This document shows, piece by piece, positions 1,190 to 27,123 of a stretch of 46,110 bases of DNA. The stretch comes from an uncultured Eubacteriales bacterium. Lineage in GTDB: Bacteria; Bacillota; Clostridia; Lachnospirales; Lachnospiraceae. The notes under the pieces were generated by a model. That model saw only the letters and a list, made by a program, of their open reading frames with translations, made no database searches and was not told where the DNA came from. The first letter of the stretch is position 1, and the number at the start of each line of letters is the position of its first letter. The stretch lies in the NCBI GenBank assembly GCA_900316715.1, contig ONEC01000023.1:1-46110 (forward strand), written 5' to 3'. Position numbers and translations under genes: made by a program.

Positions 1190-1936
1190 ATGATAAAGTT
1201 TGCAATTTACGGAAAAGGTGGAATAGGTAAGTCGACACTGTCTTCGAATCTTTCTGCAGCTCTTGCTGCTCGAGGACTTATTGTTATGCAGATCGGCTGT
1301 GATCCGAAGGCGGATTCGACCACGCTTCTTCGTCCCAAGGAGGAGATGTCAACTGTTCTTGATCTTGTAAGAAGCGGAAAGCCATTTACTCTTGAGGATA
1401 TGGTAAAGGAAAGCTCGGCCGGTGTTTACTGTGTTGAGGCCGGTGGCCCGATACCGGGACTGGGCTGCGCAGGAAGAGGAATCATTAACGCTCTGGAATC
1501 TCTTGAGGCTAAGGGAGCTTATGAGAAGTATAAGCCGGATGTTGTTATATATGATGTTCTCGGAGATGTGGTCTGCGGAGGCTTCACAATGCCTATGCGT
1601 AAGGGCTATGCAGATAAGGTATATATAGTTACTTCCGGTGAGAAGATGTCCATATATGCGGCAGCAAACATTGCTATGGCTGTGGAGAATTTCAAGAAGC
1701 GAGATTATGCTAAGCTGGGCGGAATCATACTTAACTGCCGTGGCGTTGAAGATGAAGAAAAGAGAGCCCGCGAACTGGCGGCGGATTTTAATACAGATGT
1801 TATTACGGTAGTACCGAGAGACAGTATATTTGAAAAGGCTGAAGCAGCAGGAAAGACAGTTGTGGAGCTCTTCCCTGACAGTGAAGTAACAAAGATACTT
1901 CTGGCAGCTGCGGACAGGATCATGGCAGCAGAGTGA
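1190..1936 (+). CDS. NifH-like ATPase, copy 1 (nitrogenase iron-protein family)
   Basis: 248 residues, related to NifH/BchL/CfbC reductases that bind a [4Fe-4S] cluster at a homodimer interface and pass electrons, with MgATP hydrolysis, to a NifDK-like partner. Visible motifs: P-loop GKGGIGKST (8-16), switch I CDPKADST (37-44), cluster ligands Cys93 in GCAGRGI and Cys129 in [12 protein letters not shown], and the conserved Arg96. It is shorter than true NifH (about 290) at the C terminus, as in nitrogenase-like groups. AAAGGAG at 1176-1182 supports the start. It is the first gene of the operon, 54 bases before the NifD-like gene, and clearly a paralogue of the protein at 4656. The family is certain; the reaction is unknown. 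Confidence 0.93.
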
Positions 1937-1990
1937 GAACTGCATGACGGCAATCGAGGTTGATTGTGCAATTGTGATTGAGGATGGAAT

Positions 1991-3406
1991 ATGATAAAAG
2001 CACTTCGGACAACTGAAAACAGAACACCGGAACCGGTACTGCTGAAGGATATAGATTTCAGTGCGCCTTTTTATGAAGGACTGCAGTACAACGCTCCGGC
2101 AAGAGGCGTATGGAATATTGTTCATACCGGAATGCTGATCCCGGAGTCACATCAGGTCTATGTATGTGCTCAGGGATGTCTTCGAGGCGTTATTCTTACG
2201 GCTGCAGAGATGAATGAAACAACCCGTATGTCCTGGGTCGCTCTGCGCGAAGAAGATATGTGGAACGGCGAGATGGAGAAGCGTGTTATAGAAGGTACTG
2301 CTCACATCGTGGATAAGATGGAGAAGAAACCACGCTGCGTTCTTATATATCTCAGCTGCATGCATATGTTTGAAGGCTGTGATTTCATGATGATAACTGA
2401 TGAACTGTCACAGATGTATCCGGGAATCGACTTTGTGGAGTGCTACATGATACCGACTATGAGAAAGACCATGTCGCCGGATGGCATGATGAAGATCAGT
2501 CTCTATGAAGCTGTAAAGAAGCTGGAGAGGGATGACGGCCTGGTGGGAATCGTCGGTTCAAATCTTCCGAATGATAAGGCCTCAGATCTGGTATCACTTA
2601 TAGAACTTTCGTGTCATAAGGTCTGGGATATAACAGATTGTAAGTCATACGATGAGTATCTGCGCCTAGGAGCGGCAGGACGTATAGTATCATATCTTTC
2701 TGTTACAGATGCTGCAGCAAAACAGCTGACAGAAAGACTGGGATGTGAGTGGAGCAGAGTTCCTCTTCGATTTGATGAGAGTAAACTTGATGAGAGCCTT
2801 ATCGCATTTGGGCAGGAGCTGGGACTTTCCAGAGCAGAGATTGAAAGCTGGATAGACGGGCGTAAGTCAGAAGCCTATGCGGCACTTGACGAGGCGTATG
2901 GCATAATCGGAGATACGGAGATTGCCATAGATTACACAGCATTTCCATATATACTTGAGTTTTCAGAATTATTACTGAAGCATGGCTTCAATGTTAAGAG
3001 AATATATTCGGATAATTTCCCAGCGGATGAGAGGGATGCCTATGAGAGACTCGCAGCGCACGAGCGGAGCCTGAATGGCCATTTTATAAAACTGTATCCG
3101 ACCAACGATCCTGCCATGAGATTTGCGGCTCAGGCTAGCTGCAGTACAGCTTCAACTCAAAGCGCAGTGAGTTCAGTGCAGGCAAACAGCACCGAACCTC
3201 AGGCGAGCAGTATACTTGCCATTGGACAGAAGGCTGCTTACTTTACAGGAACACAGCACTTCGTTGACATAGTTGAAGGCGGCGGAATGTTCGGATATGA
3301 CGCAGTAAAGAAGATTGCAGGACTTATGATAGAAGCCTATCAGAAGCCTAAAGATACAAAGAAGATTATCAGTCACAAGGGATGGGGGTGCGACAGCTGC
3401 CTATGA
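1991..3406 (+). CDS. Nitrogenase component 1-like protein, NifD/E-type, copy 1
   Basis: 471 residues of the Oxidored_nitro (NifD/K/E/N) superfamily. Candidate cluster-binding cysteines are Cys59 and Cys63 (CAQGC), Cys123 and Cys130 (SCMHMFEGC); Cys63 and Cys123 line up with Cys69 and Cys130 of the second copy at 5424. A typical C-terminal MFGYD element of component 1 proteins is present, and the chain ends in GWGCDSCL, a CxxC pair (Cys467, Cys470) not expected of NifD. A Ser/Thr/Ala/Gln-rich insert covers about residues 380-408. The position of the first NifD P-cluster cysteine appears to be NAPAR, i.e. lacking Cys. GAGG before the ATG supports the start. The stop overlaps the next start as ATGA. 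It is probably the larger subunit of a heterodimer with the next gene. Substrate unknown. Confidence 0.85.
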   Translation: MIKALRTTENRTPEPVLLKDIDFSAPFYEGLQYNAPARGVWNIVHTGMLIPESHQVYVCAQGCLRGVILTAAEMNETTRMSWVALREEDMWNGEMEKRVIEGTAHIVDKMEKKPRCVLIYLSCMHMFEGCDFMMITDELSQMYPGIDFVECYMIPTMRKTMSPDGMMKISLYEAVKKLERDDGLVGIVGSNLPNDKASDLVSLIELSCHKVWDITDCKSYDEYLRLGAAGRIVSYLSVTDAAAKQLTERLGCEWSRVPLRFDESKLDESLIAFGQELGLSRAEIESWIDGRKSEAYAALDEAYGIIGDTEIAIDYTAFPYILEFSELLLKHGFNVKRIYSDNFPADERDAYERLAAHERSLNGHFIKLYPTNDPAMRFAAQASCSTASTQSAVSSVQANSTEPQASSILAIGQKAAYFTGTQHFVDIVEGGGMFGYDAVKKIAGLMIEAYQKPKDTKKIISHKGWGCDSCL

Positions 3407-4656
3407 ATCAGACTGCAAGAATAATATCAATATATGCAGCGGATACTTCAGGCGTCTGCTCAGCGCTGTTCGAGTTTGGCGGCATGACAGTCATTCATGA
3501 TGCTTCAGGCTGCAACTCCACCTATACAACTCATGACGAGCCAAGATGGTATGACATGGACAGTATGATGTACATATCCGGGCTTACAGAGAGTGATGCA
3601 GTTATGGGTAACGATGAGAAGTTCATCGACGACCTCTCTACTGCAGCACAGGAGCTTCGTCCTGAGTATATCGCAATATGTGCCTCCCCTATGCCGGCCA
3701 TGATCGGAATAGATATGGATGCCATAGCTTATGAAGTGGAGAACCGGACCGGAATTCCTGCCTTTGATGTAAAGACAAATGGCATGCAGAGCTATATAAC
3801 GGGAGCGGGCAATGCATTTCGTACGCTCTCTGAAAGGTTCACGGGAACTTCAGGCGAGATGAGAAGTTCAGTGGACAGCACAGCAGATGTGCCAAAGAGT
3901 GATACAGCCGAGATAGCAGGAAAGCGGGTCAACATCCTTGGCATGACACCTCTGGACTTTCCGCTTGGAACCGATAAGGAAATGAAACGATGGCTTGAGA
4001 AGAACGGCTTCACAGTAAATGCATGCATCGGAATGGGAACTTCCCTTGACGAGGTAAGGAGACTGGACAGAGCAGATGTAAGCCTCGTTGTTTCTTCCGC
4101 AGGACGCCCACTGGCTGAGAGTCTGCAGCAGAGATATGGAATTCCGTTTATAGTGGGAGTGCCATATGGAAAATGCTTCGCTGCATTTCTCGCAGAGGAA
4201 CTGAGACGGGCTGCAGATAAAAAGCATAAGTTGTCAGAAAATTCTGTGGATGAAAAAGCGGCGTCAGCTGACGTAGGTTCGAACGTAGCTGAGAAGTACA
4301 GAAGCTTTGACAGCAGGATTGCAGTGGTCGGCGAAAGCGTTCTTGCCACATCTCTGGCAGCGGCCATATCCATTTGCACAGGACATGGAACGAGAGTTCT
4401 GGAAACTGTGGGTGATGGAGATATGTCACAGCTTTCGGATAAGGACATTTCCTGCGATGATGAGGAACGTCTGGAAGAGGAACTTAAGGCTTCAGAGATA
4501 GTGATCGCAGATCCGCTGTTCCAGCCGATATGCAGGAGCCAGAGATTCATCCGTCTTCCACACGATGCATTTTCAGGAAGATGCTATAAGTCGGAAGAGA
4601 TAAATATGATAGATACGGATATACCGTTTTTTAATACATTGAAGGAGTTTAGATAA
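3403..4656 (+). CDS. Nitrogenase component 1-like protein, NifK/N-type, copy 1
   Basis: 417 residues, Oxidored_nitro family. I prefer the ATG at 3403 (ATGA overlap with the upstream stop) over the ATG at 3382, because from there it aligns without gaps for the first 94 residues to the paralogue at 6719. Shared features: Cys19 (DTSGVC), Cys37 (HDASGC) and the DEPRW segment at 45-49. Cys93 (AICASPMP) is the third P-cluster-like cysteine and is replaced by Val in the second copy. There is a charged low-complexity stretch around residues 279-298. It should pair with the NifD-like protein just upstream and receive electrons from a NifH-like partner. It ends with a 1-base overlap with the second NifH-like gene. 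The family is secure, the substrate unknown. Confidence 0.85.
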
Positions 4657-5423
4657 TGATAAAGGTAGCCATATACGGCAAGGGTGGAATCGGTAAGTCA
4701 ACGGTTACGTCGAATCTTTCGGCGGCTCTTGCTTCCCTTGGTAAAAGAGTAATACAGATCGGATGTGATCCTAAGGCGGATTCAACTGCGAATCTCCTTT
4801 CAGGAAATCCTGTGATGCCGGTCATGAACTATATGCGTGAGCATGATGAGGAGCCGACCTCTCTTGATCAGATAACAAGGGAAGGTTTCGGAGGCGTTCT
4901 CTGTATAGAGACAGGAGGACCTACACCGGGACTGGGCTGTGCAGGAAGAGGAATCATAACTACATTTTCACTTTTGGAAGAGCTGGAGCTTTTTGAAAAG
5001 TATAAGCCGGATGCGGTTCTCTATGATGTACTTGGAGATGTTGTCTGCGGAGGTTTTGCAGCACCGATAAGAGAAGGATATGCGGAAAAGGTTCTGATAG
5101 TTACATCAGGCGAAAAGATGGCCCTTTATGCTGCAGATAATATCAACAGTGCAGTTAATAACTTCCAGGACAGAAGCTACGCAAAAGTAAGAGGTATCGT
5201 TATGAACCGCCGTGCGGTTGAAGGTGAGGAAGAGAAGGTACGTGCATTTGCAGAGAAGACCGGACTTCCTATAGTTGCAGATATTCCGAGAACCAATGAT
5301 ATCATTCATTATGAGGATATGGGAAAGACTGTGATCGAAGGTGATCCGACACTTGAAGTAAGTAAGAGATTCCTTGATCTGGCAAGACTGCTTATAGAAG
5401 AAGATGAAAAGGATAGTAAGTAA
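4656..5423 (+). CDS. NifH-like ATPase, copy 2
   Basis: 255 residues with all iron-protein hallmarks: P-loop GKGGIGKST (8-16), CDPKADST (37-44), Cys95 (GLGCAGRGI) and Cys131 ([10 protein letters not shown]), and Arg98 at the position ADP-ribosylated in NifH. It shares long identical blocks with copy 1 (1190), so the two arose by duplication, but the switch region (residues 45-80) and C-terminal third differ, as expected if each reduces its own partner. Translation is coupled to the upstream gene (TAATG, 1-base overlap) and the next gene starts directly after the stop. Predicted cytoplasmic homodimer with a bridging [4Fe-4S] cluster. Confidence 0.93.
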
Positions 5424-6704
5424 ATGAGCGAAGCATATTTTAAAACTGCAAAAGAACTGGCAGAGCAGGGACTCGCCGGACTTCCGGCAGAACTTAAGAG
5501 TTCCGAGCATCTGATATACAGCTCGCCGGCAACACTGTCCTTTAACTCTCCGGGAGCAAAGGGATTTGGCGTAAAGCGCGCGGGACTCGCGGTGCCGGAC
5601 TCGGTCATGCTGCTTGTTTCTCCGGGATGCTGCGGCAGAAATACATCCCTTTTCCGTTCAGCACCGGAGTATAGAGATCGCTTCTTCTTCCAGTTACTGG
5701 ATGATACGGATATAGTTACGGGAAGACATCTTACAAAGATTCCTCAGGCAGCTGAGGAGATGCTTTCAGTACTAGGCAAGAAGCCATCAGCAATCATGAT
5801 ATGTATCACCTGCGTTGATGCACTTCTTGGAACAGATATGGAACGTGTCTGCAGACGTGTAACTGAGAAGACAGGAATACCTGCAGTGGCTTGCTACATG
5901 TATGCACTTACAAGAGAGAAGAGACTTCCGCCTATGGCAGCAGTCAGAACCTCTGTTTATTCTCTTCTGGAAAAACAGGACAGACGTAATTCTGCTGATA
6001 TGAATATACTCGGATACTTTACACCACTTTTTGACAGCTCAGAGCTTTATACTCTGATGAAATCCATCGGTATTAAAAATATCCGTGAGCTTTCAAGATG
6101 TAATAATATTGAGGAATATCATGAACTCTCAAAGGCCAACTTCAGCCTCGTGCTGAATCCGGAAGCCAGAGCAGCAGCTCAGGATATGCAGCAGAGACTG
6201 GGCATTCCATTTATAGAAATGCTCAGACTATACAGAATAGATAAGATAAGAAATCAGTACAGACTTCTGGGACAGGCCCTCGGAGCGGAACTGGATGATA
6301 CAGAATATTATGAAAATGCAAGAAAGACCATAGATGATTTCAGAGACAGATTTGGAAAACTGGAGTTTGCAGTGGGCGAGATCCAGAACGGAGATCCTAT
6401 CGAGATGGCGCTTATGCTTATTGAGGAAGGACACGCTGTTAAGGAAATATTCGCAACCATTGGAGAACTGAATTTCAGATTCCTGAAGAGACTTGCAGAA
6501 CTCAGTCCCGATACCAAGATATATTCTAATCTTTCACCGACCATGCTTCACTATAAAGAAGAGAAGGTGGATGTATATATCGGAGCAGACTGTGAGTACT
6601 ATCATCCTGAAACTCCGGGAATTGACTGGTGCGATGATGCACAGCCATTCGGATATGACGGAACTATCAAGCTGTTTGAGAGATTAGCTGAGAAGCTATC
6701 ATAA
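5424..6704 (+). CDS. Nitrogenase component 1-like protein, NifD/E-type, copy 2
   Basis: 426 residues, Oxidored_nitro family. Cysteines at 69 and 70 (SPGCCGRN) and at 127 and 130 (ICITC) are in the positions used for Fe-S binding in this superfamily; Cys69 and Cys130 match Cys63 and Cys123 of copy 1. The C terminus has the typical QPFGYDGTIKLFERLAEKL element. It lacks the Ser/Thr-rich insert and the CxxC tail of copy 1. The start codon follows the stop of the NifH-like gene with no gap, and the NifK-like gene comes 14 bases later, so copy 2 forms a compact H-D-K unit. Cofactor and substrate cannot be read from the sequence. Confidence 0.85.
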   Translation: MSEAYFKTAKELAEQGLAGLPAELKSSEHLIYSSPATLSFNSPGAKGFGVKRAGLAVPDSVMLLVSPGCCGRNTSLFRSAPEYRDRFFFQLLDDTDIVTGRHLTKIPQAAEEMLSVLGKKPSAIMICITCVDALLGTDMERVCRRVTEKTGIPAVACYMYALTREKRLPPMAAVRTSVYSLLEKQDRRNSADMNILGYFTPLFDSSELYTLMKSIGIKNIRELSRCNNIEEYHELSKANFSLVLNPEARAAAQDMQQRLGIPFIEMLRLYRIDKIRNQYRLLGQALGAELDDTEYYENARKTIDDFRDRFGKLEFAVGEIQNGDPIEMALMLIEEGHAVKEIFATIGELNFRFLKRLAELSPDTKIYSNLSPTMLHYKEEKVDVYIGADCEYYHPETPGIDWCDDAQPFGYDGTIKLFERLAEKLS

Positions 6705-6718
6705 TATTTGGAGCATTT

Positions 6719-7822
6719 ATGAAAAAACTACTTAAGTATTTATCACCCTTTGCACCGGATCAGTCGGGAGCATGCGGGGTATTATATGAACTGGGCGGAC
6801 TGATAGTAATCTGCGATGCAGGTGGCTGCGCCGGAAATATTTGCGGTTTTGACGAGCCGAGATGGTTTACAAAGAGAAGTGCAGTCTTCAGTGCAGGACT
6901 CCGTGATATGGATGCCATAATGGGACGTGATGATAAGCTTATCGCAAAGCTGGCCAGTGCCCAGGAAAGCCTTAACTGCAATTTCACAGCCATAGTTGCG
7001 ACCCCGGTTCCAGCAGTTATCGCAACGGACATGAAGGCACTGAAGCGTATGGCAGAGAAGAAGACCGGAGTTCCATGCATTACTGTAAATGCAATCGGCA
7101 CGAGATATTACGATGAGGGCGAGAGTGAAGCCTGGGATCAGCTGTTTCGTGAATTCGCGGGAAAGGATGCCGGAACTGACGCATCGGAGAATTCAGGCGG
7201 AACTGAAGTTGCCGTGGTCGGTGTTATCGGTGCTACACCGCTTGAAACCGGATATTCATCGGAGGCGCCTCTTAAGGAAGGACTCCGCCGTTATGGAATA
7301 GAGGATTCTGTAATATATGGAGTCGGAACTGATCTGGATGCTGTAAGAGCAGCCGGAACGGTTAAGAAGAATCTGGTTGTAAGTGCAGCCGGTATAAAAG
7401 CGGCAGAGTATCTGAAGGAAAAGTTCGGAACACCATACGAAGTTGGTTATCCGTTTATTCCGGAAAGTGTTCTTGCAGAAGTTAAGACGGCTTCAGAAGC
7501 AGGTTCTCTTGGAAAAACACTTATCATCGGATCTCAGTTTGCAGCAAATGAATTAAGAAACATAATAGGAGAAGGAAGTAACGTAAACTGCGCAACCTTC
7601 TTTATGTCAGATAAGAACTATGCGGCAGAAGGAGACAGAAGACTTGACGGAGAGGATGAACTCTGGAAGCTGGTACTTGATAGTGATTATGATACCATCA
7701 TCGCAGATGATGATATAAAGAGACTTCTGGATGCAGCGGGCTATAAGGGTGCATTTATCTCATTCCCGCATTTCGCAATATCAGGAAGACCTCTGGATGA
7801 GGGAAAGACACTGTACAACTAG
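6719..7822 (+). CDS. Nitrogenase component 1-like protein, NifK/N-type, copy 2
   Basis: 367 residues, paralogue of the protein at 3403 and 50 residues shorter. Cys19 (DQSGAC) and Cys37 (DAGGC) are kept, but the third cysteine of copy 1 is Val93 here (AIVATPVP). Extra cysteines at 32, 42 and 87 are not shared with copy 1. This suggests the cluster of the second complex is bound differently, or that its role is scaffold-like as in NifEN. The stop overlaps the GTG proposed for hypF by one base (TAGTG), tying the nitrogenase-like and Hyp halves into one transcript. Confidence 0.85.
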   Translation: MKKLLKYLSPFAPDQSGACGVLYELGGLIVICDAGGCAGNICGFDEPRWFTKRSAVFSAGLRDMDAIMGRDDKLIAKLASAQESLNCNFTAIVATPVPAVIATDMKALKRMAEKKTGVPCITVNAIGTRYYDEGESEAWDQLFREFAGKDAGTDASENSGGTEVAVVGVIGATPLETGYSSEAPLKEGLRRYGIEDSVIYGVGTDLDAVRAAGTVKKNLVVSAAGIKAAEYLKEKFGTPYEVGYPFIPESVLAEVKTASEAGSLGKTLIIGSQFAANELRNIIGEGSNVNCATFFMSDKNYAAEGDRRLDGEDELWKLVLDSDYDTIIADDDIKRLLDAAGYKGAFISFPHFAISGRPLDEGKTLYN

Positions 7823-10209
7823 TGAAGAGACAGGATGGCAAGAAGGAGGTGAGGACGACGCTCACATACAATATAAGAGTTTATGGAATCGTTCAGGGCG
7901 TTGGCTTCAGACCTTTTGTGAGCCGCACCTGTAAAGAGAATGGAATAACAGGAACCGTTGCAAATAAGGGTTCCTATGTAGAAATATTTGCCCAGGGAGA
8001 TGTGGATATTCTTCAGGATGCGCTGAAGCATATGCCTCCGGCCAGGGCAGTGATACTGAATACTATCACCCATGAATGTGATATGCCGCCCTTTGATTCT
8101 TTTGAAATAATAGAGAGTGAGAAGGACGCAGGAGATATCTTCGTATCGCCGGATATAGCAATCTGCGAGGACTGTAAGAAAGAACTCTTTGATCCGGGCA
8201 ACAGAAGATACATGCATCCGTTTATAAATTGTACGAACTGTGGACCGAGACTTACCATACTCGATTCCATGCCGTACGACAGAGAAAGAACCAGCATGAA
8301 GGATTTCGATATGTGTCCTGAATGCGAATATGAATATACACATCCTGAGACAAGACGTTATGATGCACAGCCTGTATGCTGTCCGAACTGTGGACCGAGC
8401 GTGTATCTGATCGAGACAGGGCTGAGCAGTGCAGCGATTCAGGGACCAGATGGAAGCCTGAAGGATGCGGCGACTCAGGGACTACAGATTACAGTAAGAG
8501 GCAGTGAGGCCATTACGGCAGCAAGAAGAGCTCTTGCAGACGGAAAGATAGTAGCCGTAAAGGGAATCGGTGGATTTCATCTGGCCTGTGATGCGAAGAA
8601 TGAAGAGGCAGTGGCAAGACTGAGACTGCTGAAGAACAGACCTATGAAGCCTTTTGCAGTTATGATGAAGGATATGGATACTGTTCTGAGAGAATGCATT
8701 CTTCCTGAATCAGAAGATAAGATGAGAGAGCTGCTTACGGGATATCAGAAACCAGATGACACAGCAGCTTCGGTGGGAACAGGATGCACACTGGCGGAGT
8801 CAGTAGCACCGGATAATCCGAACGTGGGGGTTATGCTTCCATATACGCCGCTGCATATGCTGCTCTTTGATTATACAGATGATATAAGAGTTTCGGACTG
8901 TCTGGTCATGACCAGTGCCAATGCATCGGGAGCTCCGATATGCAGGACTGATGAGGATGCACTGAGTGAGATCGCAGGCTTTACGGATTATATACTTTCC
9001 AATGACCGTATGATAAGAACCAGAGCAGATGACTCGGTTACAGACTTTTATAAGGGACGCCCATACATGATAAGGCGTTCGAGAGGATTTGCTCCACTGC
9101 CGATAATGATAGACAGTGATATTCGGGGTTCGGTGCTGGCCATTGGAGGAGAGCTGAAGAATACATTTGCGATAGCGAAGGATACTCTTATATATCCATC
9201 TGCCTATGTGGGGGATATGGAGGATATCAGAACCGTAAATGCTCTCGAAGAGTCGGTCCGCAGGATGGAGACTCTTCTTGAAGCAGAACCGTCACTGGTT
9301 GTATGTGATATGCATCCGAAGTATAATACTACTGCGGTTGCGGAATCCCTGGGACTTCCGGTTATGAAGGTTCAGCATCATTATGCACATATACTTTCGT
9401 GTATGGCGGAGAACGAATATCTGGATGATGTGATAGGCGTTTCCTTTGATGGAACCGGATATGGAACTGATGGAACTATCTGGGGAGGAGAATATCTTCT
9501 CTGCAGCACCACAGGCTTTGAAAGACTGGGACATATAACCCCGTTCATTCAGTCAGGCGGAGACCTGTCCTCTAAGGAGGGCTGGAGAATAGCCGCATCC
9601 ATTCTGGGAAGCGAAATCAGCAAAGAGGATATATGCAATACGTTGGGACTCTGCTCCGGTATGGAATATGACATTCTGCAGAATATGATACGTACAGGAA
9701 TAAACAGTATCACATCAACAAGTGCAGGAAGACTGTTTGATGCAGCCAGTGCAGTGCTGGGAATAAGAAGAGCGTCAACCTTTGAAGGTGAAGCATCAAC
9801 ATCACTTATGTTTGCGGCAGAAAGGTACGCAGCTTCAGCAGTGAAGGCCGGCAATGCAGATGTGATAATCAACCCGGATACCACGGGAAGAGATGACTAT
9901 GATACGAATAAGCTTCTGCTTGATATAGCCACCCGCTATATGAACGGAGAAGACAGAGATAAACTTGCCTATCATTTCCACAGGAGACTGGCAGAGATAA
10001 TCATTCAGAATTGTATTTTGTACAGAGATAAAACAGGAATAGGAACTGCTGCCCTGAGCGGTGGTGTTTATCAGAACAAACTGCTGCTGAGACTGACAGA
10101 GGAAGGACTTCTGAAGGCAGGCTTCAGAGTGCTGAGGCACAGTCTGATACCACCGAACGATGGAGGAATATGTGTCGGTCAGGCACTGGCAGGACTCTTT
10201 AAGAAATAG
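7822..10209 (+). CDS. hypF: Carbamoyltransferase HypF
   Basis: 795 residues, the usual HypF size. Domains in order: acylphosphatase-like (VQGVGFRPFV, 24-33), two zinc fingers (Cys115/118/137/140 and Cys165/168/187/190), YrdC-like nucleotide-binding domain (about 220-410), Kae1-like carbamoyltransferase domain with HHYAH and SFDGTGYGTDG. HypF converts carbamoyl phosphate and ATP to carbamoyladenylate and transfers the carbamoyl group to the HypE C-terminal Cys, the source of the cyanide ligands of Fe(CN)2CO. Start choice is uncertain: GTG at 7822 overlaps the previous stop, yet an excellent Shine-Dalgarno (AAGGAGGTGAG, 7843-7853) lies inside this frame without an ATG, GTG or TTG at proper spacing after it. 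Homology begins near 7864, so the extra N-terminal residues may not exist. Confidence 0.95.
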   Translation: MKRQDGKKEVRTTLTYNIRVYGIVQGVGFRPFVSRTCKENGITGTVANKGSYVEIFAQGDVDILQDALKHMPPARAVILNTITHECDMPPFDSFEIIESEKDAGDIFVSPDIAICEDCKKELFDPGNRRYMHPFINCTNCGPRLTILDSMPYDRERTSMKDFDMCPECEYEYTHPETRRYDAQPVCCPNCGPSVYLIETGLSSAAIQGPDGSLKDAATQGLQITVRGSEAITAARRALADGKIVAVKGIGGFHLACDAKNEEAVARLRLLKNRPMKPFAVMMKDMDTVLRECILPESEDKMRELLTGYQKPDDTAASVGTGCTLAESVAPDNPNVGVMLPYTPLHMLLFDYTDDIRVSDCLVMTSANASGAPICRTDEDALSEIAGFTDYILSNDRMIRTRADDSVTDFYKGRPYMIRRSRGFAPLPIMIDSDIRGSVLAIGGELKNTFAIAKDTLIYPSAYVGDMEDIRTVNALEESVRRMETLLEAEPSLVVCDMHPKYNTTAVAESLGLPVMKVQHHYAHILSCMAENEYLDDVIGVSFDGTGYGTDGTIWGGEYLLCSTTGFERLGHITPFIQSGGDLSSKEGWRIAASILGSEISKEDICNTLGLCSGMEYDILQNMIRTGINSITSTSAGRLFDAASAVLGIRRASTFEGEASTSLMFAAERYAASAVKAGNADVIINPDTTGRDDYDTNKLLLDIATRYMNGEDRDKLAYHFHRRLAEIIIQNCILYRDKTGIGTAALSGGVYQNKLLLRLTEEGLLKAGFRVLRHSLIPPNDGGICVGQALAGLFKK

Positions 10210-10232
10210 ATAAATTTATGGAGGATATAAAA

Positions 10233-10445
10233 ATGTGTGTAGGACTTGCAGCTAAGGTAGTAAGTGTAAAAGACGGTACGGCAGTGATCGATGCCAGCGG
10301 TGCAAAGAGAGATGTAAGCGCTGAGCTCCTTGAAGATCTTGAGCCGGGCGATTATGTTATGGTTCATGCAGGTGTTGCTATCGCAAAGATATCAAGCGAT
10401 GATACCGAAGAGACTTCAACTATCATGAACAGACACGCAAGATAA
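10233..10445 (+). CDS. hypC: Hydrogenase maturation chaperone HypC
   Basis: 70 residues from the ATG at 10233, which is preferred over the ATG at 10218: GGAGG at 10220-10224 is well placed, and it puts the essential Cys at position 2 (MCVGLAAKV), the residue by which HypC carries the Fe(CN)2CO unit with HypD. The small beta-barrel pattern (VIDASG, LEPGDYVMVHAGVAI) matches the HypC/HupF family. It is 23 bases after hypF and 24 before hypD. Known role: chaperone delivering the Fe-diatomic unit to the NiFe-hydrogenase large subunit; no such subunit is encoded in the window, so its client here may be different. Confidence 0.95.
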   Translation: MCVGLAAKVVSVKDGTAVIDASGAKRDVSAELLEDLEPGDYVMVHAGVAIAKISSDDTEETSTIMNRHAR

Positions 10446-10469
10446 TTGTGTGAATAAGAGGGAAATATA

Positions 10470-11528
10470 ATGAGCGAAATAATAGATAATGCCAGAGAGA
10501 TAATCTCAGGCTATAAAGGAAAAAAACTTCGTATCATGGAGGTCTGCGGAACTCATACGCATGAGATATTCCGTCTGGGCATAAGAAATCTCCTTCCTGA
10601 GGATGTGGATCTTATATCAGGACCGGGCTGTCCGGTCTGTGTAACTCCTGTAGGCTATATCGATGAGGCAATCTACCTTGCCCTTGAGAAAAAATGCACC
10701 ATATGTACCTTCGGGGATCTTATCAAGGTTCCGGGTACAAAGATGAATATGGCCGGTGCCAGAGCAGAAGGCGCAGATATCCGTCCGGTTTACTCACCTG
10801 ACGATGCCGTTGAACTGGCAAAGGAAAACCCTGATCTTCAGGTAGTATTCCTTGCAGTCGGCTTTGAAACAACAACTCCATCAGCCTGTCTTGCAGTGAA
10901 GAAGGCTGAGAAGCTGGGACTGAAGAATTTCTCTATCCTTACAGCCAATAAGACCATGCCAAATGCATATCAGAAGCTTAAGGGAAGTGCAGATGCCTTC
11001 CTGTATCCGGGACATGTAAATGCAATCACAGGTACAGCAATCTGTGAGCAGCTGAAGGAAGAAGGTGTATCCGGTGTTGTTGCAGGTTTTACTGCAAATG
11101 AGCTTATGACAGCTCTTGCTGTTACAATAGATAACTTAGAGAAGGGTGAGCCTTTCTTTGAAAACTGCTATACAAGAGTTGTTAAGCCTGAGGGCAATCC
11201 GGCAGCACAGAAGCTGATGGATGAGGTTATGGAACTCTGCGATACAGAGTGGAGAGGCCTTGGAATAATTGAAATGTCAGGCATGAAGCTCCGCGCAGAA
11301 TATGCAGACTTCGATGCAAGAATAAAGCACAGCATTCCTGAAATCACAGGACGTCCAAATCCTGCCTGCCGTTGTGGTGAGGTTCTTCAGGGAATGTGCA
11401 AGCCATCAGATTGTCCGATGTTCGGAAAAGCATGTACACCACTTCATGCAGTTGGCGCATGTATGGTATCTGATGAGGGTGCCTGCGCTGCTTATTATAC
11501 ATACGGACAGTCCGTAGGATTAAAGTAA
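10470..11528 (+). CDS. hypD: Hydrogenase maturation protein HypD
   Basis: 352 residues, full length. Hallmarks: VCGTHTHE around Cys26, GPGCPVC with Cys54 and Cys57 (redox/iron-binding cysteines) and the C-terminal cysteine set ACRCGEVLQGMC...DCPMF...C that binds a [4Fe-4S] cluster. With HypC it forms the scaffold where iron receives two cyanides from HypE and a CO. A ribosome binding site (GAGGGAAA) precedes the ATG. Third member of the hypFCDE run. Confidence 0.96.
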   Translation: MSEIIDNAREIISGYKGKKLRIMEVCGTHTHEIFRLGIRNLLPEDVDLISGPGCPVCVTPVGYIDEAIYLALEKKCTICTFGDLIKVPGTKMNMAGARAEGADIRPVYSPDDAVELAKENPDLQVVFLAVGFETTTPSACLAVKKAEKLGLKNFSILTANKTMPNAYQKLKGSADAFLYPGHVNAITGTAICEQLKEEGVSGVVAGFTANELMTALAVTIDNLEKGEPFFENCYTRVVKPEGNPAAQKLMDEVMELCDTEWRGLGIIEMSGMKLRAEYADFDARIKHSIPEITGRPNPACRCGEVLQGMCKPSDCPMFGKACTPLHAVGACMVSDEGACAAYYTYGQSVGLK

Positions 11529-11594
11529 GCATAAGGCCGGTCCGAAAGACTGCGGTAAGCACAGCATTTAAAATAATAAAAGAAGGAAAAACAG

Positions 11595-12599
11595 ATGGAA
11601 GATAAGATTACACTTGCACATGGCTCCGGTGGAGTCCAGACAAATGAACTGATAGGAAATATATTTAAAAAGCATTTTGCAAATCCATATCTTACGGCTG
11701 ATGATGCGGCTGTTCTTGATATGGCAGCAGGAAAGATTGCTATGTCGACAGATGGTTTCATAGTATCACCTTATGAGTTCCCGGGCGGAAATATAGGAAA
11801 GCTTTCTATATGCGGAACGGTTAATGATGTTGCCTGTATGGGCGCAAAGCCTGAGTATCTCACATGCTCTTTCGTTATCGAGGAAGGATTCCCGGTTGAG
11901 AAGCTTGAGGAGATTGCCGAGGCTATGGGCAAGACTGCAAGAGAGGCCGGAGTAAATCTTGTTGCAGGAGATACAAAGGTTGCAGGTAAGGGACAGGTTG
12001 ATAAGATATTTATCACAACAACAGGAATCGGTCATATAATCGAAGGTGCTGCTACATCAGGTGCTTTCGCAAAGCCGGGAGATAAGATCATCGTAACAGG
12101 AGATATAGGACGTCATGGATGTACTATTCTTCTTGCAAGAAATGATTTCAAGATCGATGCAGATATCACAAGTGACTGCGCACCGCTTGCAAAGAATGTG
12201 GAGGCAGTGCTTGAGGCAACTAAAGATGTGCATGTAATCAGAGATGCAACAAGAGGTGGTGTTGGTACTGTTCTCTATGAAATTGCTGCAGAAAGCAATG
12301 TTGGAATCTCTCTTGATTCTGAGAAGATTCCGGTACAGGATGGTGTAAGGGGAGTATGCTCTATGCTGGGACTGGAGCCTCTCTATCTTGCATGTGAAGG
12401 AAGACTGGTTATCTTTGCTCCTGCTTCAGAAGCAGATAAGATTCTGGATGCGCTTCATGCATGTCCGAATTCAGAAGGAGCAGCTGTTATCGGTGAAGTA
12501 ACAGAGGAGAATCAGGGTAAGGTTATTCTTAATACAGCAGTAGGTGCGAAGACATTTCTTGCTCGACCAAGCGGAGAACTGCTTCCAAGAATCTGTTAA
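11595..12599 (+). CDS. hypE: Hydrogenase maturation protein HypE (thiocyanate-forming)
   Basis: 334 residues of the PurM/SelD-like ATPase family. N-terminal LAHGSGGVQTNELI and DDAAVLD motifs bind ATP and Mg; the chain ends in PRIC, the terminal Cys334 that HypF carbamoylates and HypE dehydrates to a thiocyanate. Complete and apparently functional. The 66-base gap from hypD holds nothing notable beyond an AGAAGGA ribosome binding site. Together with hypF it supplies the cyanide ligands; hypA and hypB, needed for nickel insertion, are missing from this operon. Confidence 0.96.
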   Translation: MEDKITLAHGSGGVQTNELIGNIFKKHFANPYLTADDAAVLDMAAGKIAMSTDGFIVSPYEFPGGNIGKLSICGTVNDVACMGAKPEYLTCSFVIEEGFPVEKLEEIAEAMGKTAREAGVNLVAGDTKVAGKGQVDKIFITTTGIGHIIEGAATSGAFAKPGDKIIVTGDIGRHGCTILLARNDFKIDADITSDCAPLAKNVEAVLEATKDVHVIRDATRGGVGTVLYEIAAESNVGISLDSEKIPVQDGVRGVCSMLGLEPLYLACEGRLVIFAPASEADKILDALHACPNSEGAAVIGEVTEENQGKVILNTAVGAKTFLARPSGELLPRIC

Positions 12600-12623
12600 A
12601 TATTTTAGGGGGACATGAAGAAG

Positions 12624-14264
12624 ATGAAAAGTATTGTAACTAAAGAGGAGCTGGAGTATTCCAGCTGTGTTGAGGGAGATATTACTCCCGGAAGGGTTCT
12701 GGATTTTGACATTGTAGTTGTTGGAGCGGGAGCGGCAGGTGTTCCGGCTGCAGGATGGGCAGCAGAGCTGGGGGCTAAGGTTGCTCTTCTTCAGAAGGAA
12801 GGTACTGTGGTATCACAGGGAAACTGCGGTTCAGCTATTATAAGATCCCGTTCAACTGAGGCGGGTATTGAAAAGTGGATACATCACACCAACAGCCTCT
12901 GTGACTGGAGAGCTGATACAAAGCAGCTCCGTGCTTATGCAAAGTATTCAGAGGAAGCTATGATGTGGCTCTTTAATCGTGCCGGTTTCACTACAGAAAC
13001 AGAGTACGGTGATGGAAGTAAAGTTGATGACAACGCCAACTCAGCTGCACTGCTTAATGATGGAGATATGTTATCTGCATTCAGAAGTACCAGCGGAGAT
13101 TTTACAGGCGTATGGAAAGACAGAACCAACACTTATGATTATGGTGATGATCACTGCTATTTCTGGGCTCCGTGGATCGGACCAAAGCCTTATAATACAG
13201 GCCATGCCCTCAGAAAAATAGTTGCCAGATTATCAGAAGAACATTCGAATTTTGAGACCTTTTTCTCTACACCGGCGGTAAAGATCCTTAAGGATGGAAA
13301 CAGAGTAACAGGTGTAATAGGAAAAACATCAGATGGTGAGTACATTCAGTTTAATGCATCTAAGGCGGTAATACTTTCAACAGGAGATTATACAAATAAT
13401 CCTGCCATGGTTGATAAGTACTGTCCTGATATAGCTGAATTTGATAAAAAGCAGAGAGGAAAGACAGGAGACGGACATATCCTTGCCATCGAGGCTGGTG
13501 CTCATATGGAGCCGCTTGGACATACTAAGATGATGCACGACTTTGATTCTGCACTTATGTTTGAGGAACCGTTCTTATACCTCAATATGGAGGGAGAACG
13601 TTTCACAAATGAATATACAGGCTTTGTATATATGGGAAATATTCTCAGATCTCAGCCGTCGTATAAGGGTTCTCAGCTGGATCCGGATCATCAGGACGGA
13701 TCAAAGGGCTGGTACTGCATGATCTATGATGATGATTATATGTCACTGCCGAAGGAGGCTTTTGTTGACGGACCGGTTCCACCTTTTGTTATGGAGAAGT
13801 TTATCCCGGGCGCAGTGGAGGATCCTAAGGGCGTATTTAAGAATCTTATAGATCTTCATAGATGTGATACATTGGAAGAACTTGCAAAGGAACTGGATAT
13901 TCCATACGACAAGATGAAGGCATCCATCGACAGATATAATGAACTCTGCGATGCCGGATGTGATACAGACTTCGGTAAGCCTGCAAAGTATATGAATAAG
14001 ATAGTGAAGGCACCGTTCTGGGGCGCAAGAAAGCATATACGTGTATCAGCTGAAGTTTCGGGAATTACTGTTAATGAATTTGGACAGGCAGTCGGAGACA
14101 ACGGAAAGCCTATCGACGGACTTTACTGCGTAGGAAATCTTGGAGGTCAGTTCTATGGCGGCGCTGATTATCCATTCCACCAGACAGGACTGTCACTTGG
14201 AAGATGCTATACATTTGGAATGATAGCAGCAAGACATGCTATGGGAGAAGAACTTACGGTCTAA
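12624..14264 (+). CDS. FAD-dependent fumarate reductase-like flavoprotein
   Basis: 546 residues from the ATG at 12624 (spacing 11 from AGGGGG at 12607-12612; an ATG at 12615 is too close). FAD_binding_2 family (fumarate reductase/succinate dehydrogenase flavoprotein, ketosteroid dehydrogenase, urocanate reductase type). Dinucleotide fold GAGAAG at 34-39; the acidic residue normally ending strand 2 is Gln57 (VALLQK). The C-terminal FAD/active-site part GLYCVGNLGGQFYGGADYP then FHQTGLSLGRCY is present. No signal peptide, FMN-binding or haem domain, so a cytoplasmic enzyme dependent on an outside electron donor. It lies 24 bases after hypE and is likely the last gene of the operon, suggesting it acts on the product of, or shares electrons with, the nitrogenase-like complexes. 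Substrate unknown. Confidence 0.85.
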   Translation: MKSIVTKEELEYSSCVEGDITPGRVLDFDIVVVGAGAAGVPAAGWAAELGAKVALLQKEGTVVSQGNCGSAIIRSRSTEAGIEKWIHHTNSLCDWRADTKQLRAYAKYSEEAMMWLFNRAGFTTETEYGDGSKVDDNANSAALLNDGDMLSAFRSTSGDFTGVWKDRTNTYDYGDDHCYFWAPWIGPKPYNTGHALRKIVARLSEEHSNFETFFSTPAVKILKDGNRVTGVIGKTSDGEYIQFNASKAVILSTGDYTNNPAMVDKYCPDIAEFDKKQRGKTGDGHILAIEAGAHMEPLGHTKMMHDFDSALMFEEPFLYLNMEGERFTNEYTGFVYMGNILRSQPSYKGSQLDPDHQDGSKGWYCMIYDDDYMSLPKEAFVDGPVPPFVMEKFIPGAVEDPKGVFKNLIDLHRCDTLEELAKELDIPYDKMKASIDRYNELCDAGCDTDFGKPAKYMNKIVKAPFWGARKHIRVSAEVSGITVNEFGQAVGDNGKPIDGLYCVGNLGGQFYGGADYPFHQTGLSLGRCYTFGMIAARHAMGEELTV

Positions 14265-25389: not shown

Positions 25390-27123
25390 ATGAGAAAAAA
25401 TATTAATGAAATAAATGAAACTAAACGAAAGAAGAAGGGTGGCCTTCTTAAGAAACTTGGAGCTCTTACACTTGCACTTACAGCCAGCTTCGGTCTTCTT
25501 ACAGGATGCGGTAATGACGGAAGCGTTGAAGCTTCTACATTAAAGGATGAGACCAAGGAAGAAGCTAAGGCAGTATACAGAACAGTAGATGAGATTAAAG
25601 AAGCAGGCGAGATTAACATCGGTGTCTTCTCCGACAAGTCCCCATTTGGATATGTTGATGAGAACGGCGATTATCAGGGATATGATGTTTACTTCGCTGA
25701 AAGAATAGGAAAGGATCTTGGAGTAAAGATCAATTATGTATCAACCGAGGCTGCAAGCCGTGTAGAGTATCTGGAGACCGGAAAGGTTGATATCATCCTT
25801 GCAAACTTTACAGTAACAGATGAGAGAGCAGAAAAAGTTGATTTCGCTCTTCCATATATGAATGTAGCACTCGGCGTTGTATCACATGATGATAACGTTA
25901 TAACAGATCTCAGCCAGGTCACAGCAGATGATCAGGTAATCGTTATATCAGGAACAACAGCTGAAACCTACCTTACAGAGAATAACCCGGACATCAAGCT
26001 TCAGAAGTTCGATACATATGCAGCTGCAAAGAGTGCATTTGAGAACGGAACAGGCGTTGCATGGGCTAACGATAATACAGAAGTTATAGCATTTGCAATT
26101 GAGAACGAGGGCTATACAGTTGGAATCGAGACACTCGGAAGTCTTGATACGATAGCACCTGCAGTATCAAAGGGCAACGAATCACTTCTTAACTGGCTTA
26201 ATGATGAGATTAAGACACTTGGAAGTGAAAACTTCTTCCATGCAGATTATGAAGCAACACTTATAGATACTTACGGTGCAGATTATGAAGATACACTTGT
26301 TGTTGAAGGTGGAGTTACCTCATCCGGTAAGGAAACAGCTTCAGAGGACAAGGCAACAGATGATTCAGCAGATAAGACTGTAGAAGATAAGGGAACTATA
26401 ACAATCGCAGCATCTCCAACACCTCATGCAGAGATTCTTGAGAAGGCTGGAGAAATCCTTAAGGATCAGGGATGGACACTTAAAGTAACAGAGTTTGAAG
26501 ATTATGTACAGCCAAACCTTGTAGTAGACAGTGGTGAAATCGATGCTAACTATTTCCAGCATGTACCTTACCTTGATAACTTCAACGAAGAGAACGGAAC
26601 TGCACTCGTTAATGCAGGTGGTATCCACTATGAACCATTCGGTATCTACCCTGGAACAAAGAGCTCACTTGATGAACTTGCAGATGGAGATGTAATAGCA
26701 GTACCTAACGATACAACAAACGAAGCAAGAGCACTTCTGCTTCTTCAGGATAACGGAGTTATAACACTTAAGGAAGGCGCAGGCCTTACAGCAACAGTAC
26801 TTGATATAGTTGATAATCCAAAGAACATTCAGATTCAGGAGCTTGAAGCAGCTCAGGTATCAAGAGTAAAGGATGAAGTTGCATTTGTAGTACTTAATGG
26901 TAACTATGCACTTGAAGCAGGTTTCTCAGTAGCTAAGGACTCAATCGCTTATGAGACATCTGATTCAGACGCAGCAAAGACATATGTTAATATCATCGCA
27001 GTTAAGGAAGGAAACGAGAATAATGAAGGCATCAAGGCCCTCGTTGAAGTACTTAAGTCTGATGAGATCAAGCAGTTTATAAATGACACATACGACGGAG
27101 CAGTTATTCCGTTCGAAGAGTAA
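25390..27123 (+). CDS. Fused dual substrate-binding lipoprotein: polar amino acid (SBP3) domain plus MetQ/NlpA domain
   Basis: 577 residues. Lipoprotein signal with lipobox LTGC (Cys40); SBP_bac_3 domain about 65-305 (GVFSDKSPFGYVDENGDYQGYDV, split as IGVFSDKSPFGYVD and YQGYDVYFAERIG; ANFTVTDERAEKVDFA); a Ser/Asp/Thr/Lys-rich linker about 308-335; NlpA/MetQ domain about 336-577 (ITIAASPTPHAEILE, ANYFQHVPYLDNFN, VPNDTTNEARALLLL). Each domain alone is a complete binding protein, so one membrane anchor displays two ligand sites, probably cystine or a polar amino acid and methionine. AAAGAAGGAAAA precedes the ATG. Ligand identities are inferred from family and the Cys/Met-rich leader. Confidence 0.9.
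   Translation: MRKNINEINETKRKKKGGLLKKLGALTLALTASFGLLTGCGNDGSVEASTLKDETKEEAKAVYRTVDEIKEAGEINIGVFSDKSPFGYVDENGDYQGYDVYFAERIGKDLGVKINYVSTEAASRVEYLETGKVDIILANFTVTDERAEKVDFALPYMNVALGVVSHDDNVITDLSQVTADDQVIVISGTTAETYLTENNPDIKLQKFDTYAAAKSAFENGTGVAWANDNTEVIAFAIENEGYTVGIETLGSLDTIAPAVSKGNESLLNWLNDEIKTLGSENFFHADYEATLIDTYGADYEDTLVVEGGVTSSGKETASEDKATDDSADKTVEDKGTITIAASPTPHAEILEKAGEILKDQGWTLKVTEFEDYVQPNLVVDSGEIDANYFQHVPYLDNFNEENGTALVNAGGIHYEPFGIYPGTKSSLDELADGDVIAVPNDTTNEARALLLLQDNGVITLKEGAGLTATVLDIVDNPKNIQIQELEAAQVSRVKDEVAFVVLNGNYALEAGFSVAKDSIAYETSDSDAAKTYVNIIAVKEGNENNEGIKALVEVLKSDEIKQFINDTYDGAVIPFEE

Follow-up and report, generated by a model that had tools for sequence, protein, structure and literature searches.

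A nitrogenase-like and HypCDEF gene module as a probable replacement for HydG in [FeFe]-hydrogenase maturation in Lachnospiraceae and other bacteria

Why does a bacterium carry two nitrogenase-like gene sets in one operon with hypF, hypC, hypD, and hypE when its genome shows no NiFe-hydrogenase? This arrangement (NifH1-D1-K1-H2-D2-K2-hypF-C-D-E) was found by open reading frame (ORF) inspection on a single strand at positions 1190 to 12599 of contig ONEC01000023.1 (GCA_900316715.1), from an uncultured Eubacteriales bacterium placed in Lachnospiraceae by GTDB; the whole contig of 46,110 nucleotides was analyzed and is called the window here. From carbamoyl phosphate, HypF and HypE form an enzyme-bound cyanide, HypC and HypD assemble Fe(CN)2CO, and the CO and CN- ligands in [FeFe]-hydrogenases are attributed to HydG. 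Here, we report genome comparisons indicating that the ten genes probably stand in for HydG in the maturation of [FeFe]-hydrogenases. With hydE, hydF, and the gene of the TM1266 regulator on its flanks and no HydG present, the gene cluster most likely serves the [FeFe]-hydrogenase H-cluster rather than a free-standing cofactor enzyme of a new kind. The original prediction, made from the letters of the window, had the two machineries cooperating, either through a cofactor with an Fe-cyanide/CO unit or by one complex maturing the other; the cooperation is supported, but its target shifts from a new cofactor enzyme to the H-cluster.

A contig scan with the NifD2 alignment gave 464 encoding stretches, and the best 80 of these were fetched as relatives. 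They came from Lachnospiraceae, Ruminococcus (including R. albus KH2T6 and AR67 and R. bicirculans 80/3), other Oscillospiraceae, Lentisphaeria, and one Synergistaceae metagenome-assembled genome. All ten genes were present in 47/80 loci, in the same order and on one strand in every one of the 47, so the operon is more than a chance arrangement; 31 loci held an in-order part of the set, and two (L138 and L146) held a rearranged cluster. Upstream counts used loci reaching at least 8.5 kb 5' of NifD2 (n = 50), all of which had NifH1, NifD1, NifK1, and NifH2, and downstream counts used those reaching at least 7.5 kb 3' of it (n = 54; hypF in 53, hypC in 54, hypD in 54, and hypE in 51). This genome-neighborhood search, of the kind proposed with the original prediction, bears out a link between the nitrogenase-like proteins and the Hyp machinery, NifHDK2 being followed by Hyp genes wherever there was room to see. 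At locus L123, hydE precedes NifH2, and NifHDK1 was not found between them. In genome G071 (L064), NifD2 and NifK2 appear as one 812-amino-acid ORF.

With the HydG model, none of the 50 cluster-bearing genomes and not the window's own genome scored over the cut-off, which 100 of 200 genomes of the family passed with the same model, and no HydG was found at any of the 80 loci. Sub-cut-off matches in the 50 genomes scored like ThiH or HydE. Another radical S-adenosylmethionine enzyme such as ThiH might do HydG's job, with the NifHDK-Hyp module unrelated to it, and a ThiH-like match (about 171 to 190 bits with the HydG model) does occur in 22/50 genomes, the match of the window's own genome being ThiH itself (514 bits); we consider this very improbable and reject ThiH as a general substitute, because the other 28/50 cluster-bearing genomes have no such match.

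HydF was found in 119 of the 200 family genomes (one under the cut-off), 97 with HydG and 22 without. A Hyp set with NifHDK was present in 12 of the 22 HydG-less genomes versus 0 of the 97 (Fisher p = 8e-10, with the hypD of G051 counted as a HydG-positive case and no kinship correction); these surveys generally scored, for each genome, the top 8 first-look candidates for HydF and the top 9 for HydA. HydF was present in all 12 module genomes (G000, G025, G069, G071, G083, G091, G124, G136, G159, G167, G183, and G191), among which the module is split over two contigs in G071, three in G091, and two in G136 (contig ends inside hypF), and is cut at the edge in G167 and G191. A set of 23 genomes selected because they carry NifD1 or hypD included three HydG positives (G051, G072, and G143), all without the module. 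From this co-occurrence, we infer that the module does the work of HydG.

The Hyp genes are best read together with the missing NiFe-hydrogenase. A search with PF00374 found no NiFe-hydrogenase large subunit in the window's own genome (98.6% complete), which makes orphans of its Hyp genes, and just 4/50 other cluster-bearing genomes have a NiFe-hydrogenase; the original prediction would have called the link accidental had relatives carried the nitrogenase-like genes without hypFCDE and had hypFCDE always tracked with a NiFe-hydrogenase, and this refutation fails. In the family, hypD was found in 31 and PF00374 in 20 of the 200 genomes, and 11 of the 12 genomes with hypD and no PF00374 carry a NifD1-like gene. 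A HypD tree was built from 29 module rows, representing part of the loci, and 20 others (19 NiFe genomes plus G051). A single branch (support, 100/99) separates module HypD from all others, so the module Hyp proteins are a lineage of their own. Genome G051, which has HydG and hypD and no NiFe match, was considered as a counter-example and rejected, as its HypD groups with NiFe-linked HypD. In G069 there are two Hyp sets, one adjoining its NiFe-hydrogenase and the other inside the NifHDK cluster.

As in [NiFe] maturation by HypCDEF, all four proteins are present with catalytic residues kept: the HypE C terminus is LPRIC in 67/67 aligned rows, at least 93% of 76 HypC rows share H50 and the cysteine that follows the inner Met, and the HypD cysteines are likewise conserved in at least 93% of rows. 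The module differs from that system in its separate HypD clade and in the lack of a NiFe-hydrogenase in its own genome and in 46/50 others; neither hypA nor hypB was among the recurrent genes near the cluster, as judged from the cluster surroundings, with no genome-wide search for them made. A search of plasmids for hypD returned just ordinary HypD, at <60% identity. In HydG-positive G150 (L182), a hypF-like ORF lies between HydF and TM1266 and is 53% identical to that of the window.

The genes beside the cluster are those of [FeFe]-hydrogenase maturation. At least one of hydE, hydF, and TM1266 was found upstream of the module in 50/50 loci (hydE in 35, hydF in 30, and TM1266 in 47), and the median gap between hydE and nifH1 was -4 bases in loci with upstream sequence. 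The R. albus KH2T6 locus reads TM1266-hydF-hydE-nifH1-D1-K1-nifH2-D2-K2-hypF-C-D-E, and in G071 hydE stands 41 bases after hypE. The window's own genome encodes HydE (566 bits), HydF (461 bits, truncated by the end of its contig), and a group A6 HydA (822 bits), with hydE and hydF elsewhere than the module, beside which they lie in many relatives. HydA scored over the cut-off in 44/50 cluster-bearing genomes, including two R. albus strains, and was matched in 47/50; the cysteines of the three H-cluster motifs were intact in 17/17 HydA examined. R. albus KH2T6 and AR67 have the cluster and HydA without HydG. Compared with the HydE-HydF-HydG pathway, HydA, HydE, and HydF are kept and the neighbors are the same, since TM1266, HydE, and HydF adjoin HydG in HydG-positive genomes, but HydG is absent and ten unrelated genes stand in its place. 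In R. albus 7, two [FeFe]-hydrogenases are reported to re-oxidize ferredoxin and NADH with production of H2 (PMC6776011, citing Zheng 2014).

A HydE tree was made from 31 module rows (part of the loci), 16 from HydG-positive loci, 2 of class B, and 2 of class C. On this tree, a minimum of four changes is required to explain the distribution of the module label (bootstrap range, 4 to 4): most module HydE form one clade, and those of G124, of G071, and of G069 with G083 fall among HydE of HydG-positive genomes. It therefore looks as if HydG and the module were swapped on more than one occasion, with HydE staying.

The six nitrogenase-like proteins were compared with known families. No window protein scored above the curated nifH, nifD, or nifK cut-offs, all scores with the CfbCD, DPOR, and COR curated models (Fe-protein or catalytic subunits) were below cut-off, and both NifH-like proteins fall below the NCBIfam cut-offs of nifH, CfbC, BchL, and BchX. 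The nearest solved chain by sequence was NifE for NifD1, NifK1, and NifK2 and the nitrogenase alpha chain, with NifE second, for NifD2, all with low scores. AlphaFold2 models of NifD1 and NifD2 (mean predicted local distance difference test [pLDDT], 85.2 and 83.6) have the nitrogenase component-1 fold, and their best structural matches are NifDK and NifEN chains. Cysteines conserved in at least 93% of aligned rows are C93 and C129 in NifH1 (73 rows); C59, C63, C123, C151, C467, and C470 in NifD1 (78 rows), the last two forming a C-terminal CxxC near the tail end, where residues 469 to 471 of the model have pLDDT of <50; C26 and C44 in NifK1 (81 rows); C69, C70, C127, C130, and C226 in NifD2 (88 rows); and C32, C37, and C42 in NifK2 (80 rows). 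In NifD, Cys275 and His442 are the ligands of the iron-molybdenum cofactor; no clear equivalent of Cys275 was apparent in our reading of the alignments. The fold, the NifH-type partner, and a few Cys at P-cluster-like positions are shared with NifEN, DPOR, COR, CfbCD, and methylthio-alkane reductase, but the module stays below every curated cut-off and has two paired sets, the Hyp genes, and the NifD1 CxxC. With NifE closest by sequence, a NifEN-like scaffold role for the NifDK sets, in which they would carry and alter a cluster precursor, may be proposed.

Such a role would give the following order of events. HypF and HypE would convert carbamoyl phosphate to enzyme-bound cyanide, which HypC and HypD would place, with CO, on iron; ATP-driven, NifEN-like NifH2-D2-K2 and NifH1-D1-K1 would then turn the HypCD product into an iron unit accepted by HydE, and HydE and HydF would complete the [2Fe] cluster and deliver it to HydA. 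The HypCD product has two CN and one CO per iron, and the HydE substrate has one CN and two CO; the NifHDK sets would make this shift, or carry the unit. More speculatively, one NifHDK set supplies or exchanges CO, and the CxxC tail of NifD1 hands the unit to HydE. In the known pathway, as described in PMC11736057, HydG makes Fe(CO)2(CN)(Cys) from tyrosine, HydE makes the two-iron unit from it, and HydF delivers this unit. When HydG was left out, HydE and HydF are reported to have activated HydA to about 1%, and adding CO or CN- doubled this (PMC9431212), which makes a second ligand source plausible. Tentatively, and with confidence falling somewhat short of even, we propose a second route to the H-cluster, in which HypCD-bound iron cyanide derived from carbamoyl phosphate is remodeled by two nitrogenase-like reductases and passed to HydE and HydF, so that in major H2 producers of the rumen and gut the [FeFe]-hydrogenase ligands would not derive from tyrosine. 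As parts of the same tentative proposal, one reductase perhaps makes CO from CO2 or formate or exchanges CN for CO, and genomes with NifHDK1 and an importer but without Hyp, or HydA genomes in which no maturase was found, would use imported precursors.

A different division of labor is suggested by three genomes (G117, G134, and G175; L032, L038, and L033, respectively) that have NifHDK1 without NifHDK2, HypD, or HydG and a FecCD/BtuC-type ATP-binding cassette (ABC) importer beside it; hydE is present in all three, hydF was found in two, and hydE/hydF or TM1266 adjoins NifHDK1. The link between nitrogenase-like and Hyp genes in the original prediction accordingly stands for NifHDK2, with hypC and hypD 3' of it in 54/54 loci, but does not extend to NifHDK1 in these three. 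NifHDK1 with an importer and without Hyp suggests that NifHDK2-Hyp may make something that NifHDK1 uses, and that others maybe import. NifHDK might then build the iron unit, with Hyp giving cyanide alone and CO coming from elsewhere, or Hyp alone might replace HydG, with NifHDK performing a later reductive step shared with the NifHDK1-only genomes. Module genomes G069 and G083, where one NifH was seen and NifH1 was not found in the fetched stretch, are in keeping with such a split, and one Fe protein may serve both NifDK sets there. We regard these divided roles as rather unlikely: there are just three such genomes, and ABC ATPases lie near HydG too in some HydG-positive loci, so precursor import is simply noted. 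In HydG-less G142, G181, and G048 (L057, L058, and L070), an SsuA/NMT1-type ABC importer lies beside hydE and/or hydF.

Several observations weigh against the module being a replacement for HydG. The ligand count of the HypCD product does not match the known substrate of HydE. HydA was below the cut-off or unmatched in 6/50 cluster-bearing genomes, and the R. albus strains analyzed (KH2T6 and AR67) differ from strain 7 of the H2 reports. Some branches of the HydE tree are long, and the label changes on it carry no direction. Seven genomes with HydF and without HydG lack a NifD1-like gene (G011, G047, G114, G122, G128, G142, and G181), the other three HydF-positive, HydG-negative genomes outside the 12 with the module being G117 and G134, already described, and G048, with a distant NifHDK set; furthermore, 45/200 family genomes have HydA without HydF, and H-cluster motifs were intact in 20/20 HydA from HydF-less genomes (19 genomes plus G059; loci L206 to L225). 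HydG can therefore be missing where the module is missing too, and a missing maturase alone is no proof of a substitute, because HydG or HydF is absent elsewhere with HydA motifs intact. G160, of the window's own genus, has HydA without HydF and without a HydE- or HydG-like match.

TM1266 is the sole hydrogenase-maturation marker in 15/50 loci, with hydE and hydF counted at the loci. As in the first idea of the original prediction, this would also suit a module that makes another Fe-CN/CO cofactor, kept in NifD1K1 or NifD2K2 as a new reductase, with a regulatory reason for the proximity of hydE and hydF, as would two complete reductase sets, which exceed the needs of a simple ligand source, and the extra conserved CxxC of NifD1. 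We judge this improbable, however, as it leaves unexplained the absence of HydG in 50/50 genomes, the four or more label changes on the HydE tree, and the overlap of hydE with nifH1. All of the data are genomic and the family-survey counts are uncorrected for kinship, which speaks for accidental neighborhood or lineage-specific hitchhiking; we find that explanation barely credible, since the order is kept across Lachnospiraceae, Oscillospiraceae/Ruminococcus, Lentisphaeria, and the Synergistaceae genome, module HypD is one clade, label changes recur on the HydE tree, and HydG occurs with an intact module in none of the 97 genomes with HydF and HydG or of the 50 with the cluster.

The gene neighborhood itself has been published: for Coprococcus catus and other Firmicutes, Dos Santos et al. 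(2012, PMC3464626) noted two linked copies of NifHEN-like proteins close to "hydrogenase maturation proteins" and suggested, in one sentence, a role in active-site metallocluster assembly. In the accessible text of that paper, no missing HydG, orphan Hyp genes, HydE/HydF linkage, or pathway was found. A literature search, with preprints and most subscription papers outside its scope, returned no paper naming such a HydG-free pathway. The claim of the original prediction that no such system had been described thus survives for the mechanism, as far as that search reaches, but not for the neighborhood.

Were the module to replace HydG, ten genes unrelated to it would do its work by other chemistry; any different function of the set would be new, too. 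Much rumen and gut H2 (Ruminococcus and Lachnospiraceae) would depend on an unknown maturation pathway, two nitrogenase-like families would gain a function, and HypCDEF would have a target other than NiFe-hydrogenase. This would also explain why NifH-like genes occur in animal guts where N2 is not fixed, and would open another laboratory route to the H-cluster.

The features of the operon are listed in Table 1. Their ORFs, order, strand, and spacing, with widest intergenic gaps of 54 and 66 bases, are as first described, and the gene families named then agree with the Pfam and NCBIfam results; the "ten genes" of the original prediction came to eleven in its own list, which included the flavoprotein. 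Two Fer4_NifH and four Oxidored_nitro (PF00148) proteins were identified in the operon by Pfam; HypF, HypD, and HypE exceed NCBIfam cut-offs, and HypC was identified by Pfam. The start codon of hypF (GTG) overlaps the NifK2 stop codon (TAGTG), and the true start of hypC is probably an inner ATG giving MCVGLA.

Table 1. Features of the operon in the window, with database support
Feature	Position	Strand	Support
NifH1, Fe-protein-like ATPase/reductase	1190..1936	+	Fer4_NifH, E 6.2e-85; below all NCBIfam equivalog cut-offs
NifD1, NifE/NifD-like subunit, conserved C-terminal CxxC tail	1991..3406	+	PF00148, E 2.1e-10; no NCBIfam match
NifK1, NifD1 partner	3382..4656	+	PF00148, E 1.8e-36; nearest solved chain NifE
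NifH2, Fe-protein-like ATPase/reductase	4656..5423	+	Fer4_NifH, E 6.2e-88
NifD2, NifE/NifD-like subunit	5424..6704	+	PF00148, E 4.6e-32
NifK2, NifD2 partner	6719..7822	+	PF00148, E 2.8e-19
hypF, carbamoyltransferase (cyanide precursor)	7822..10209	+	TIGR00143, 717 bits (cut-off, 466)
hypC	10218..10445	+	PF01455, E 1.1e-22
hypD, Fe-S scaffold for Fe(CN)2CO	10470..11528	+	TIGR00075, 403 bits (cut-off, 193)
hypE, makes thiocarboxamide/thiocyanate at C-terminal Cys	11595..12599	+	TIGR02124, 429 bits (cut-off, 252)
FAD_binding_2 flavoprotein	12615..14264	+	PF00890, E 2.3e-38

The gene of the flavin adenine dinucleotide (FAD) protein starts 15 bases beyond hypE. The original prediction had this flavoprotein acting on the product of the system; because none of the 80 relatives has an ORF matching it, there is no support for giving it a place in the system, and it was rejected as a component, being probably co-transcribed here but outside the conserved system. 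Of the other genes that recur around the cluster, the most widespread families reach at most 9/80 loci and look lineage bound. In a phylogeny of the NifK-like proteins, NifK1 from the module and from the three FecCD/BtuC-type importer loci formed one clade (100/100) and NifK2 a separate one (100/100). Elsewhere in the window (25390 to 27123), two binding proteins are fused in an unusual way, a single ORF carrying both a family-3 solute-binding domain (PF00497) and an NlpA lipoprotein domain (PF03180).

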